Assembly: GCF_900104625.1 (NCBI RefSeq)
Contig: NZ_FNVZ01000005.1
Coordinates: forward strand, 1,426,001-1,490,000
Reading direction: 5' to 3'
From: Leptotrichia massiliensis
Lineage (GTDB): Bacteria; Fusobacteriota; Fusobacteriia; Fusobacteriales; Leptotrichiaceae
Length of the DNA: 64,000 nt
The translations under genes and the position numbers were made by a program. Every line of letters begins with the position of its first letter. The first letter of the stretch is position 1. The notes under the pieces were generated by a model. That model was not told the origin of the DNA. It was given only the letters and a program-made list of their open reading frames with translations, and did not search any database. Below, piece after piece: positions 50,555-54,429 of the stretch.

Positions 50555-51871
50555 CTACAATTTATTTCTGTATCTGCTTTTCAAATCTCGCTGTTTATAT
50601 CTGGACAAAGCATAATCCAATGCGTCTTTAGTATGTGGGTCAAAGTTAAACATTTTCTTTTTATCCCCTATGATTGCTACACCATTTTCATCTTTTTTAT
50701 ATTTTAAATTTTTTAATTCCCTATAAGTATTTAAACACCTATCAGCAATCACAATTTCATTAAAGGATTGAAGTTTACCAATACGTCCTAACACATTACC
50801 AACCATTTTATCCGCTTTTTTCATCAATATTCCATTCATCTTAAATTCTTGAATTGTTTTTGGTTCTGCATAATCAGCAAATATTATTATCCCTTCTTCA
50901 GCAATATCATACAAAAAATCTTCCTGTAATATCTGAGCATTTGTCATTCCTTTGTTATAAAACTCATCATAAACATAAAGGATATTATTATCATAATCAA
51001 TGGCCGCTCTTATTACAGCTGTGTATGAAATTTCAAATCCAAAATCCATTCCAGCAATATGCCATTCAATCCCTAATCGTGCAACTTGTTCATCAACATA
51101 TTCATTACTTGCTTTTTCTATATTGTTATAAACAAAATCACCGTGATAGCCAAATCGCCCTTTCTGTGCAATTTCTACTAAATACGGATCTTTTTCCATA
51201 TTAAGTTCTGCAATCGCACTTTTGGGGAGAAATTTATTTTCCTTATAAGTTGAATGATTGACATAAATTCTTTGAATATATCCTGTTTCAGAATCCTTTA
51301 TTTTTTTTATAAATTCTTTTTTTTCATATAATACTTCCTCAGATACTTTTAAATATTCTGTTAAAAACCAATATGTCCAGTTAATAGAACTATCAGGCTC
51401 TGCTGGATTTGTACTTATATACATATTCATTTTTATATTTGGCGTTCTAAGTCTATATCTTAATTGCTTAAAATCATTCCTGTTGCATTGATTTGCCTCT
51501 TCTATCCATATATCTGTAATACCTTTTATTGATTTTAAACGTCCAACTTCATCTAATCCCCTGAAAATAAATTTAGTTCCTGTTATTTTATTTTCTATTT
51601 CTAGCCGTCCTGTTTTAATAATAAAATAATCATTCAATTCAAGTTCATTTATAACATCGACTAAATCAGCAAATACACTATCTCTTATATCTCTATATAC
51701 TTTTCTTATTCCTAATATTCTTCTTTTCTCTCTAAAGCTATTAATAATAAGCCTGGTTGCTACATTGTAACTTTTACCACTTCCATAACTACCAATAAGA
51801 AAATAAATATCCGCTGTGCTTTCTGTTATAAATCTTTTAAAATGATTATTAATATCTAACTCAACTTTCAT
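50555..51871 (-). CDS. terL: Terminase large subunit
   Basis: About 438 aa. The ATPase domain has Walker A GSYGSGKSYN near residue 28, adenine/arginine region GIRKVYRDIRDSVF and Walker B-like DIWIEEANQ. The nuclease domain has GMDFGFEIS and FADYAEPKTI with acidic metal ligands, and a final ALDYALSRY. It packages and cuts concatemeric DNA; PBSX/Terminase_3 type. The ATG at 51871 has GGAG five bases upstream. Confidence 0.92.
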   Translation of the reverse strand: MKVELDINNHFKRFITESTADIYFLIGSYGSGKSYNVATRLIINSFREKRRILGIRKVYRDIRDSVFADLVDVINELELNDYFIIKTGRLEIENKITGTKFIFRGLDEVGRLKSIKGITDIWIEEANQCNRNDFKQLRYRLRTPNIKMNMYISTNPAEPDSSINWTYWFLTEYLKVSEEVLYEKKEFIKKIKDSETGYIQRIYVNHSTYKENKFLPKSAIAELNMEKDPYLVEIAQKGRFGYHGDFVYNNIEKASNEYVDEQVARLGIEWHIAGMDFGFEISYTAVIRAAIDYDNNILYVYDEFYNKGMTNAQILQEDFLYDIAEEGIIIFADYAEPKTIQEFKMNGILMKKADKMVGNVLGRIGKLQSFNEIVIADRCLNTYRELKNLKYKKDENGVAIIGDKKKMFNFDPHTKDALDYALSRYKQRDLKSRYRNKL

Positions 51872-51873
51872 CA

Positions 51874-52131
51874 TTACTCCAGAATTATAAATTCTTGATG
51901 TGGATGCAGTTCCTTGAAATGATTTATTAAAGGATTGTCATTTATAAAATAATTCCTATCTACATCTTTATAATCAACTTTCAATTCTTTTCCACCATCT
52001 CTAAACCTAAAGCCTTTGACTAATCTAAAATCCCCTCTTTCAATTCTTTCATCAAGCATTGCTTTAGTAATTTTATTTGAGGGAATTTCAACTACTTCTG
52101 TTTTTTCTTCTACTTCTGTTTTTCTTGCCAT
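51874..52131 (-). CDS. Small phage protein between terminase subunits
   Basis: An 85-residue charged protein (MARKTEVEEKTEVVEIPSNK; later GFRFRDGGKELKVDYKDVDRNYFI). Its stop overlaps the terL start, so it is translated with it. No family recognised; perhaps a packaging accessory. Confidence 0.6.
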   Translation of the reverse strand: MARKTEVEEKTEVVEIPSNKITKAMLDERIERGDFRLVKGFRFRDGGKELKVDYKDVDRNYFINDNPLINHFKELHPHQEFIILE

Positions 52132-52134
52132 TTT

Positions 52135-52533
52135 CTACACCTCAAACTTCTCTCTAGTTCTTTTTACTTTTCCATCTCCCACAATTTCACTATCCGATTT
52201 ATATTTAACTACAAAATTTTCACCTTTTTTAGTTATCACTCTATACTGGAATTTAACACCTGATGTATCTTGTGTTTTGATGTTGTGTAAAAAATCTACT
52301 TTTTTATTAAACTCTTCTTCATTTAAATCTATATCATATAAAATGTTATTTGTTCCCAATCCAAATCTCATTTCTTCTCCACTAATTTTAAGAGTTACAT
52401 TTTTATCAAAGCTAAATCCGTCTAAATATTTTTCAGCAAATTCATCTAATAATTTTTCAACTTTTTCATTTACTTTTGTTTCCTCATTTGGCATTTGAGT
52501 AGTAGTATTTTGATTTTCATTTTGGTTACTCAT
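52135..52533 (-). CDS. Hypothetical phage protein upstream of terL
   Basis: A 132-residue acidic protein with a Gln/Asn/Thr-rich N terminus followed by a helical and strand domain (FDKNVTLKISGEEMRFGLGTNNILYDIDLN). Its start overlaps the terS stop by 8 bp. No function recognised. Confidence 0.6.
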   Translation of the reverse strand: MSNQNENQNTTTQMPNEETKVNEKVEKLLDEFAEKYLDGFSFDKNVTLKISGEEMRFGLGTNNILYDIDLNEEEFNKKVDFLHNIKTQDTSGVKFQYRVITKKGENFVVKYKSDSEIVGDGKVKRTREKFEV

Positions 52534-53257
52534 TTTCTTTATCCTCCATTTCTTCTATTGCGTTGTCTTCTTTAAAATTGAATTCTATTTTTGCATCTTG
52601 TACTGTTTCATCTTCAAGTTTCAATTTTTCAATTTCAACTTTTTCAGACTGTATTCCCTCGTTTACTAACTGTGCCTCAACTTCAAGAAGTTCATAGTTA
52701 GTTAATAGTTTTCCAGTCCGCATTATTTCCTTTTCTGTTTTTACAATTAAACTTAATTTCTTTTCGAGTGCTGCAACCTCTTTTTCAGAATTTTCTTTTT
52801 TATTGATTATTTGTATAATCCTTATCGCTGTATTCCTTTTTGCTATTGCTATATTTCTTAAAAAGTCAGGCAAATCATAATAGACTTCATCTATAATCTT
52901 CTGTGCCTGTTTTTCGGTTGCTTCTAATCTCATTTGTCTTATACTTCTGGCTTTTCTGTAGTATGTAACTTCTGAAATATCATATTTTTTCATTACTTCA
53001 TCTTTTGGAACATCGTTAATTATGTCTGATTTTATTTGTGTTTCTTTATTGTTTGCAACCTTTTGCAACTGGTTGCGTTTTGCGGTTGCATTTTTCTTCT
53101 TGATGGTTGCACTATTTTCTTTTTTTTTAACCCACTTTTCTCTACTAATCCAACTTTTGATAGTTCCTACTTTTTGATTATATTTTTCAGCCAATGCCCT
53201 TATGCTTGTTCCATTCTCATATTCGTACTTAATCAGTTCTTTTATGTCATTTGTCAT
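52526..53257 (-). CDS. terS: Terminase small subunit
   Basis: A 243-residue protein with an N-terminal HTH (YENGTSIRALAEKYNQKVGTIKSWISREKWVKK). A central helical block (KYDISEVTYYRKARSIRQMRLEATEKQAQKI) and a long coiled coil follow; the acidic C terminus would contact TerL. It recognises the phage packaging site. Strong site AAGGAG before the ATG. Confidence 0.85.
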   Translation of the reverse strand: MTNDIKELIKYEYENGTSIRALAEKYNQKVGTIKSWISREKWVKKKENSATIKKKNATAKRNQLQKVANNKETQIKSDIINDVPKDEVMKKYDISEVTYYRKARSIRQMRLEATEKQAQKIIDEVYYDLPDFLRNIAIAKRNTAIRIIQIINKKENSEKEVAALEKKLSLIVKTEKEIMRTGKLLTNYELLEVEAQLVNEGIQSEKVEIEKLKLEDETVQDAKIEFNFKEDNAIEEMEDKENE

Positions 53258-53270
53258 TTCTCCTTGTCCT

Positions 53271-53939
53271 TTAATTCAAATCTAGTTTTTCATATTTTCT
53301 TATTACAACACCCTCATCAAATCGTTTTGGATATTCTTGTTTTATTTTTTCCAATTCCTTTTTTACTCTTTTATTTAATGGAAAGGCATATTTATGTTTT
53401 CCTTTTGTATAATATTCACTTGCATTTGAATCTATCTTTTTCAAAAATGTCAAACTTTGAGAGCCTTTACCATATTTACTATGAATTGATTTTGGATGCG
53501 TCTTTTTGCCATTTAATATAAAATATCTTTCTCCAACTGTTCTTCCTAAATAAATCCAGTTTGTCGCCTGATATATTCCGCCTTTATGATTTTGTTCCGT
53601 ATCAGCATAGGAAATAATCACATACAAGTCTGGACATTTATTTTTAAGAAATTTAATTGCCTTAGCCAATATTTCACTTACGAAATGCTTATGATTAGTT
53701 AATGCAACTCTTGTGAGTTCACAAATCCTATCTTGTTTCAATCCAAATTGTGTTCCCAAATTTACATTTGCACCTCTTGAGAAAATAACACATCCTATAT
53801 ATTTCCCATTTTCCCAAGCGCCAACTTTAACTGTCTTACCTGCTGGCATACATTTTGAATAATGCCAGTTCTTACAGGCATATTCCGCTGCTTTAAAATC
53901 ACACCAGTCTATTTTTAAATCATTCCTGTTCTCTTGCAT
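53271..53939 (-). CDS. mom: Mom-family DNA adenine modification protein
   Basis: A 222-residue GNAT-fold protein. NWHYSKCMPAGKTVKVGAWENGKYIGCVIFSRGANVNLGTQFGL at the start, then ICELTRVALTNHKHFVSEILAKAIKFL and IISYADTEQNHKGGIYQATNWIYLG match Mu Mom homologs. Mom turns adenine into N6-methylcarbamoyladenine and shields phage DNA from restriction. The start lies inside the end of the ParB-like gene (20-bp overlap), with the GGGGAGG ribosome-binding site in that gene's zinc-ribbon codons. This is strikingly like com-mom of phage Mu. Confidence 0.82.
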   Translation of the reverse strand: MQENRNDLKIDWCDFKAAEYACKNWHYSKCMPAGKTVKVGAWENGKYIGCVIFSRGANVNLGTQFGLKQDRICELTRVALTNHKHFVSEILAKAIKFLKNKCPDLYVIISYADTEQNHKGGIYQATNWIYLGRTVGERYFILNGKKTHPKSIHSKYGKGSQSLTFLKKIDSNASEYYTKGKHKYAFPLNKRVKKELEKIKQEYPKRFDEGVVIRKYEKLDLN

Positions 53940-54429
53940 CGAACACCTCCCCGCAATGTGGACAAGTTATATATTTTGGATCAAGTTTATCAAGTCTTGG
54001 CTGTTCCTCTTCAGATACTGGTTGAAAATCAATCTCTTTTACCAAATCCTCTAATTCCTTTTCTTCAAAACCTAAAATAGAAATATCAAAATCCAAGTTT
54101 TTTAATTCCATTAGTTCTTTTTGAATTTTATCCCTGTCAAAATCGGTTGCAAGTGTCAATTGATTGTCTGCTATTATATAAGCTCTTTTCTGTTCCTCAG
54201 ATAAGTGAGAATGCCTTATTACTTCTACTTCGCTATATCCTAATTCTTTCAAGGCACATAGCCGTCCGTGTCCTGCTAACAGCATATTATCCTCATCTAT
54301 TAACAGCGGAAGCATAAAATCAAAATTTTTAATAGAATTTTTTATTTTCTCTATATGCTCTATATCGTGTTGCTTTGCGTTATTCTCATATTCCTTTATA
54401 AAATTAATGTTTATTTTCTCTATTTTCAT
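53920..54429 (-). CDS. ParB-like protein with C-terminal zinc-ribbon motif
   Basis: About 169 aa. The N-terminal domain carries the ParB/sulfiredoxin-type core: NAKQHDIEHIEKIKNSIKNFDFMLPLLIDEDNMLLAGHGRLCALKELGYSEVEV. The C terminus ends KYITCPHCGEVFDAREQE, a lone CxxC that recalls half of the Mu Com zinc finger. The ATG at 54429 has GGAG seven bases upstream; an earlier in-frame ATG at 54459 does not. It probably cooperates with the overlapping mom gene as its translational or targeting partner (inference). Confidence 0.72.
   Translation of the reverse strand: MKIEKININFIKEYENNAKQHDIEHIEKIKNSIKNFDFMLPLLIDEDNMLLAGHGRLCALKELGYSEVEVIRHSHLSEEQKRAYIIADNQLTLATDFDRDKIQKELMELKNLDFDISILGFEEKELEDLVKEIDFQPVSEEEQPRLDKLDPKYITCPHCGEVFDAREQE

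Follow-up and report, generated by a model that had tools for sequence, protein, structure and literature searches.

A CPxCG-tailed ParB-like protein encoded ahead of mom in a Leptotrichia prophage may form, with Mom, a phage DNA-hypermodification module

What does a ParB-like protein do when its gene runs into that of a DNA-modifying enzyme? The window analysed here, a 64,000-nt stretch of the Leptotrichia massiliensis genome, raises this question on its reverse strand. There, the gene for a 169-aa ParB-like protein (P0001; 53920..54429) overlaps by 20 nt (53920..53939) a mom gene for 222 aa (53271..53939). A first-pass annotation had noted that mom starts 20 nt inside the end of the upstream gene and that the codons for C-G-E-V hold its ribosome-binding site, and the open reading frames (54429-53920 and 53939-53271) bear out both points: the Shine-Dalgarno (SD)-like GGGGAGG at 53946..53952 lies within TGC GGG GAG GTG, counted from C159, and 6 nt separate it (53952-53946) from the ATG of mom, the SD being found as GGAGGTG. 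By analogy with Mu com-mom, that annotation had gone on to read the end of the ParB-like protein as a Com-like tail and to tie the protein to adenine hypermodification. Packaging genes lie downstream of mom on the same strand (50555..53257), namely an HTH/terminase-small-like gene (53257-52526) and the gene of the terminase large subunit (51874-50555); the pair is therefore a module of a tailed prophage, placed just ahead of its packaging genes.

By homology, the mom product is a GNAT-fold DNA adenine modification enzyme. Pfam PF25680 aligned positions 2-202 of its 202 to residues 8-205 of the protein (E 6e-45; score 153.8 bits, cut-off 27.1), phrog_1384 matched with an E-value of 1.2e-63, and the Mu Mom structure 8bv8 was recovered by sequence (E 6e-8). 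The AF2 model (pLDDT 89.4) had 8bv8 as its best PDB fold match as well (E 1.8e-11) and thereby the GNAT fold of Mu Mom. Like the rest of the Mom family, the protein is predicted to add a group to adenine N6 in DNA; it is the one Mom match that a search of the window's genome returned. We considered, and dropped, a zinc site shared between the ParB-like protein and C22 of Mom (53876-53874, reverse strand): this residue does not vary across all 32 rows of alignment A5, but faces Ile in the Mu alignment and, while Cys in 88 of 93 clade-A rows, is Val in the other five (L048, L106, L107, L108, L167).

The ParB-like protein comprises a ParB/Srx-fold domain (residues ~1-122), a linker and a C-terminal CPxCG knuckle. 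Its residues 1-167, tail covered, matched phrog_620 (E 2.6e-49), and Pfam ParB_N gave a match below the Pfam cut-off (E 3.4e-4). In the AF2 model (pLDDT 92.8), the ParB/Srx domain is confident and the linker less sure (block means 77-79). Foldseek returned ParB-N 5k5d (E 1.1e-6), Noc, KorB, PadC, SerK and sulfiredoxin, and the P-motif (Box II) is GHGR (residues 53-56), whose G53 is invariant and H54 almost invariant in alignment A4; fold and P-motif together place the protein among the ParB/Srx (ParB-CTPase) folds. Its reading frame (54429-53920) ends in ...LDKLDPKYITCPHCGEVFDAREQE, the final residues being CPHCGEVFDAREQE, with CPHCG within the last codons. In the conserved CPxC pair, C156-P-H-C159 (53953..53964), C156, P157 and C159 were invariant across A4, an alignment picked to contain tailed ParBs, and the knuckle was modelled as a short beta-hairpin with strands at residues 153-155 and 162-164. 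This single CxxC supplies two Cys ligands per chain, and all zinc-ribbon Pfam matches fell below the cut-off. Linker residues 139-155 (SEEEQPRLDKLDPKYIT; 53965..54015) include the site that reads DQGxLD in most Mom-linked relatives; the window linker reads QPRLD there, which departs from the pattern Q[GS]xL[DG]. The nearest relatives of the domain in our survey were ParB-methyltransferase (MTase) fusions (L215, 59% identity). A second ParB, lying within a 522-aa frame of the same genome (L271; C5:657132-657557), shares 52% identity with residues 1-143 of the window protein and probably corresponds to the ParB-MTase fusion L226.

The pairing is not peculiar to this prophage. Among the viral Mom loci, taken as the best 80 of 589 relatives and including a copy of the window locus (L002), one sequence (L013) starts at the mom start; all 79 loci with upstream sequence had a ParB-like ORF directly upstream of mom (78 by phmmer, L043 by eye). 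CPxC was found near the ParB C-terminus in 78 of these 79, and L076 has CPCGC. Phage phiEf11 carries the same pair with an overlap of 14 nt. In 37 Mom loci from named bacterial genomes, a CPxC-tailed ORF was located immediately upstream in 20, a tail-less ParB in L292, L300, L301 and L302 (Clostridia/Selenomonadales), and in L280 the upstream ParB ends short of the tail. ParB went unrecognised in 14 of the 37; in two of them a CPxC-tailed ORF occupies that position, and 12 have neither (including L289 and L291, which have little upstream sequence). Mu has Com, with no ParB beside mom, so Mom is not always accompanied by a ParB. The pair is nevertheless real and conserved, and hence a functional link of the ParB domain to adenine hypermodification is likely; to this extent the first-pass reading stands, while its Com-like tail does not. 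One viral locus (L038:1-1049) has tandem ParB-like genes, both with a CPxC tail, ahead of a single mom.

The Com question can be judged against Mu itself, where, according to the available text of PMC6483171, Com has four zinc cysteines and mom is controlled through a hairpin at its start. Carried over to the window, the zinc tail of the ParB, or the overlap, would activate mom translation through binding of mom mRNA. In favour of such control, the window shares with Mu an upstream Cys-containing protein, and it combines the overlap with an SD in the tail codons. Across 92 tailed Mom rows (near-copies and two window copies included, start codons assigned by a heuristic), the genes overlapped in 81 and the SD lay within C-G-x codons in 41. 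Yet the tail was retained in the 11 rows without overlap, seven of which (two from one contig) place the mom start 167-217 nt past the ParB stop, and no SD was recognisable in 38 of the 92; in phage Martha, a 73-aa gene sits between the tailed ParB and mom. The survey of neighbours that the first-pass annotation had called for thus found the ParB-CxxC/Mom pair widespread, but the ribosome-binding site in the Cys-Gly codons in fewer than half of the tailed rows. Folding of the window mom start revealed no start-sequestering hairpin either, the region folding less stably than shuffled versions of itself (z +1.70; 197 of the 200 shuffles equalled or exceeded its stability), in contrast to the Mu control, whose GUG start lies inside a hairpin, albeit with an overall stability not above shuffles (z -0.52). 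Nor does the tail amount to a four-cysteine zinc finger, given one CxxC in the window ParB against two in Mu Com. It is not a mom-specific element: it also precedes C5-MTase genes (27 of 27) and DpdA-like genes (6 of 8), and is missing with Mu-type Mom, the clade that Com serves (0 of 7). Together with L292 and L300-L302, the Mu-type loci are cases in which the pair persists and the CxxC is absent, which the annotation itself had held to tell against its analogy. In view of the tail's non-Mom partners, the rows lacking overlap or SD and the unstructured start, we reject Com-like start-site control as highly improbable. The same tail on ParBs of quite different DNA-modifying enzymes argues for a general coupling part and not for a copy of the Mu Com switch.

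The distribution of the tail was established on 179 ParB rows, ascertained by ParB and pooled from three queries: a ParB without tail (best 80 of 597 relatives), a ParB with search patterns outside the tail (77 loci), and the window ParB (18 loci), for which one of six patterns covers the tail. For each ParB, the partner was defined as the longest reading frame close to its end and classed by phmmer with seeds, representatives being checked in Pfam and PHROGs; the DpdA-like (TGT/DpdA-like) class gave no Pfam match and owes its name to phrog_887, and 'Mu-type' is a class by score, since the seven best matches of Mu Mom are these seven proteins (88-112 bits) and the best of the 93 clade-A proteins reaches 63 bits. 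Counted as tail/no tail, the rows split 12/0 for Mom clade A (one row being the window's copy), 27/0 for C5-MTases, 6/2 for DpdA-like enzymes and 1/1 for PAPS reductases, as opposed to 0/7 for Mu-type Mom, 0/14 for TET-associated glycosyltransferases, 0/3 for ABC-GNAT, 0/2 for FkbM, 0/3 for separate N6/N4 MTases and 0/85 for ParBs fused to N6/N4 MTases; other partners gave 2/13, and one tailed ParB had no downstream frame (1/0). Collapsed into 78 clusters at 70% identity, the respective counts were 7/0 (Mom A), 7/0 (C5), 2/0 (DpdA), 1/1 (PAPS), 0/3 (Mu-type), 0/7 (glycosyltransferase), 0/1 (ABC-GNAT), 0/1 (FkbM), 0/2 (separate N6/N4), 0/36 (fused), 2/7 (other) and 1/0 (none). As exceptions, the tailed ParB of L211 precedes a terminase gene and that of L101/L194 an 81-aa orphan. 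The tail therefore marks stand-alone ParBs serving certain separate modification enzymes. The linker, too, differs between partners: Q[GS]xL[DG] occurred in 48 of 56 Mom-linked and in 0 of 12 C5-MTase-linked tailed ParBs.

A tree of 154 ParB domains, built with the tail excluded, has few columns and many open forks, so that the change and contrast counts drawn from it are rough. On this tree, the Mom-A label requires 31 changes, of which well-supported branches impose at least 8, and the tail state requires 39. In eight independent supported contrasts of tail state, the partner class agreed in 6.8 on average, opposed in none and was the same on both sides in 1.2 (sign-test p with a median of 0.016 and a range of 0.016-0.063), with the contrast class (Mom A/C5/DpdA) having been defined after the table was seen. 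Judged from the sequences, ParB domains have swapped partners repeatedly, and the tail goes with the partner class and not with the ParB lineage.

Several loci add to this picture of partners. Fusobacterium phage phiFN37 (L110:564-1849, L101:2950-3680) encodes two CPxC-tailed ParBs, one of which shares 4 nt with a TGT/DpdA-like gene, while the other overlaps the 81-aa orphan. At L099:2947-4688, a CPxC-tailed ParB overlaps a PAPS-reductase-like gene that is followed by another ParB-like ORF (seen by eye), possibly another modification system. Tail-less ParBs stand immediately ahead of TET-associated-type glycosyltransferases in L115, L122, L124, L125, L179, L222, L237 and L252, and further ones ahead of FkbM methyltransferases and ABC-GNAT proteins. 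Mu-type Mom (L121, L136, L161, L171, L209, L235, L086) is likewise paired with a ParB lacking the zinc tail, and several of these ParBs have a different C-terminus, ...ENSNGNA....

We favour, as a reasonably probable reading, a two-protein module for phage DNA hypermodification, formed by Mom and a DpdB-like accessory, a ParB/Srx-fold NTPase with a CPxCG tail for docking or as a zinc hook. GNAT-fold Mom would modify adenines of the phage genome and protect it against restriction. The upstream ParB, a putative NTP-binding protein of the ParB/sulfiredoxin fold, would couple NTP binding or hydrolysis, along with DNA loading, to base modification, as DpdB may do for DpdA. Its CPxCG knuckle and partner-matched linker would join an exchangeable ParB module to a separate enzyme (Mom, C5-MTase or DpdA-like), either by docking that enzyme or through a hook in which two ParB tails share one zinc ion; the latter is proposed because one CxxC contributes no more than two ligands. 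The tail is missing where enzyme and ParB form a single chain, as with the N6/N4 MTases. Overlap and SD in the tail would reflect gene packing, possibly with ordinary translational coupling in addition, and no Com switch. Some ParB-fold proteins bind NTPs (ATP, CTP or GTP as fusions), among them a bacterial acetyltransferase fusion described in the available part of PMC12704722. Against an accessory of this kind, DpdB is possibly dispensable in some clusters (PMC12839542).

Two further readings were weighed. Plain translational coupling would have the overlap do no more than match ParB and Mom levels and the tail be a generic zinc knuckle that contributes nothing to Mom function; it suits a compact phage operon and the frequent short overlaps at these loci, but gene packing leaves unexplained why tail and linker track the partner enzyme across repeated switches, and we regard this as unlikely. 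Alternatively, the ParB-like protein might be a nuclease or counter-defence protein that travels with modification genes and does not act with Mom. The sequence match of the window ParB to the ParB-domain nuclease 5k5a (E 6e-5) would agree with this, as would ParB/Srx domains, one of them fused to an adenine methylase, that act as nonspecific nucleases/nucleotidases in the accessible text of PMC5512222. Such a passenger would, however, hardly be expected in near-constant pairing with modification enzymes and with partner-specific tails, so that we hold it to be quite improbable.

The Mom alignment disclosed a further feature of these loci, as the C-termini of many Mom relatives proved to be one DNA segment translated in differing frames. 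ARAGORN reported almost no tRNA at the mom genes, and a Python finder with a T-arm test called an RNA in 0 of 93 rows, for which the T-arm test was blamed. An acceptor-plus-CCA test was positive in 55 of 93 rows versus 35 of 1860 shuffled regions, and in 3 of 59 regions at other partner genes, two of these being Mu-type Mom. Fifteen copies of 76-77 nt aligned as a full cloverleaf, with 96.5% paired cells against 32-45% for slid partners and 73 double-change cells against 21.5 in shuffles. The acceptor reads GCGnnnn/nnnnCGC, followed by U73 and CCA; the UCCA end, an NCC anticodon (UCC in 10, ACC in 5) and a bulged T-stem A were present in 15/15 copies, the D-loop GG in 3/15, and the T-loop started UG rather than UU in 12/15. 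In a shorter class of 27 copies (67-70 nt, below full D-arm length), RNAalifold recovered acceptor and T-arm but not the anticodon stem, though many single copies show one, and for a few (e.g. L042, L052, L067) the acceptor-plus-CCA finder placed no NCC in the loop.

An RNA model trained on the 15 full-length copies matched 69 of 100 Mom sources (the 15 training copies and near-twins included; L002, L082, L172, L220 and L224 left out) and none of 100 selected ParB loci (565 kb) that have no Mom partner. Six of the seven Mu-type Mom loci had a match (L086, L121, L136, L161, L171, L235). No match was obtained in the window, the Mu stretch searched, phiEf11 (L100), L003-L013, L020-L030, L044, L050, L060, L072, L073 or the Mu-type L209; L072 and L073 have an ordinary tRNA-like match at the element's place. 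Among the named-genome Mom loci, the model matched 16 of 37, and 15 of these copies (without L287, twin of L286) showed 95.0% paired cells and 75 double changes against 19.6, in an alignment made against the model and therefore leaning towards it. ARAGORN calls a tRNA-Gly in L289, in L298 and in Microbacterium phage Appa, in the last on the strand opposite to mom. Of 85 RNA matches, 75 overlap the mom 3' end wholly or partly (e.g. L019:3602-3677, L068:3604-3680 and L298:3105-3180, as placed by the RNA model), seven lie up to 133 nt downstream, and three, all from Chloroflexi, precede the Mom match or sit at its start; a TCCA end is seen in 77 of the 85. The element is identical in L061 (1113-1188), with a clade-A Mom, and L086 (4260-4335), with a Mu-type Mom. 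The identical stretch opens 2 nt before the element and extends for 160 nt beyond it; hence, exchange of the Mom core reached as far as the element. A role as recombination boundary is possible, and we retain it because the two loci become identical 2 nt ahead of the element. An attachment site is an unlikely explanation of the RNA, as all four helices covary and its position varies.

The glycine-tRNA-like RNA at the mom genes of relatives suggests glycyl-tRNA as the donor of Mom's group, and we tentatively propose, as possible rather than probable, that Mom is a glycyl-tRNA-dependent DNA glycyltransferase, often with a dedicated glycine tRNA at its gene. In Staphylococcus, non-proteogenic tRNA-Gly feeds the GNAT-fold Fem enzymes. 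A glycyl residue, C2H3NO, is an isomer of the group assigned to Mom's base, methylcarbamoyl or glycinamide, and the modified base could arise through acyl transfer to N6 and a subsequent rearrangement. The unusual features of the RNA—a D-arm reduced in the shorter class, the T-loop UG, few D-loop GG and the bulged T-stem A—would be expected to keep it from EF-Tu and the ribosome, Mom loci without the element, such as the window and Mu, would use host tRNA-Gly, and the ParB-CPxCG protein would load Mom onto DNA. Against a glycyl-tRNA donor, the 50 PDB fold matches listed for the window Mom consist of Mu Mom and further enzymes of GNAT type, CoA-dependent in many cases, and include no aminoacyl-tRNA transferase, and the element is absent from the window and the Mu stretch searched. 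The element would fit a function in mRNA 3'-end processing, regulation or recombination as well. A jumbo-phage review gives, in its available text, glycyl-CoA as an example donor (PMC7824862), and our literature search on Mom with ParB, DpdB or glycyl-tRNA returned no tie between Mom and glycyl-tRNA among the matches listed, although earlier publication is possible.

The tail distribution would come down to a simple rule, namely that stand-alone ParBs serving Mom, C5-MTase or DpdA-like enzymes bear a CPxCG plug, whereas ParBs fused to their enzyme lack it, and this offers a concrete test of how ParBs work with modification enzymes. If right, the link to tRNA-Gly would name the donor of Mom's group, show a tRNA employed in DNA modification and be testable by a single in vitro reaction.

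Set beside known systems, the locus resembles Mu com-mom in that a Cys-containing protein is encoded upstream of, and overlapping, a Mom that matches 8bv8. Unlike the 62-aa, four-Cys, RNA-binding Com, however, the window protein is a 169-aa ParB fold with a two-Cys tail; the annotated com/mom overlap is 80 nt in Mu versus 20 nt here, the window mom lacks the start-site hairpin, and the Mom clades differ (Mu Mom scoring 88-112 bits with the seven Mu-type proteins and at most 63 with the 93 clade-A relatives). The phrog_498 ParB-DNA methyltransferase fusions of phages and prophages share the ParB domain family and are nearest to the window ParB, yet carry the enzyme on the same chain and the CPxC tail in 0 of 85. 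A ParBc adjoining a modification enzyme has been described before: it is frequent beside CmoX-type C5-MTases, with its role called unknown in 2025 (PMC12783734), and in ssrA islands of Dehalococcoides, parB and mom share a module with a tRNA-Gly-like locus (PMC3146451, 2011), whereas the available passages of both sources describe no CPxC tail and no enzyme-linked role for ParB or tRNA. DpdB/DpdA, the 7-deazaguanine DNA modification system, offers a further parallel. Although the window partner is Mom, and the likeness drawn here is one of gene pairing, a ParB-superfamily gene (DpdB being an ATPase) is encoded with a base-modification enzyme in both, and similarly tailed phage ParBs precede the phrog_887 TGT/DpdA-like genes of phiFN37, L191-L194, L232 and L266.
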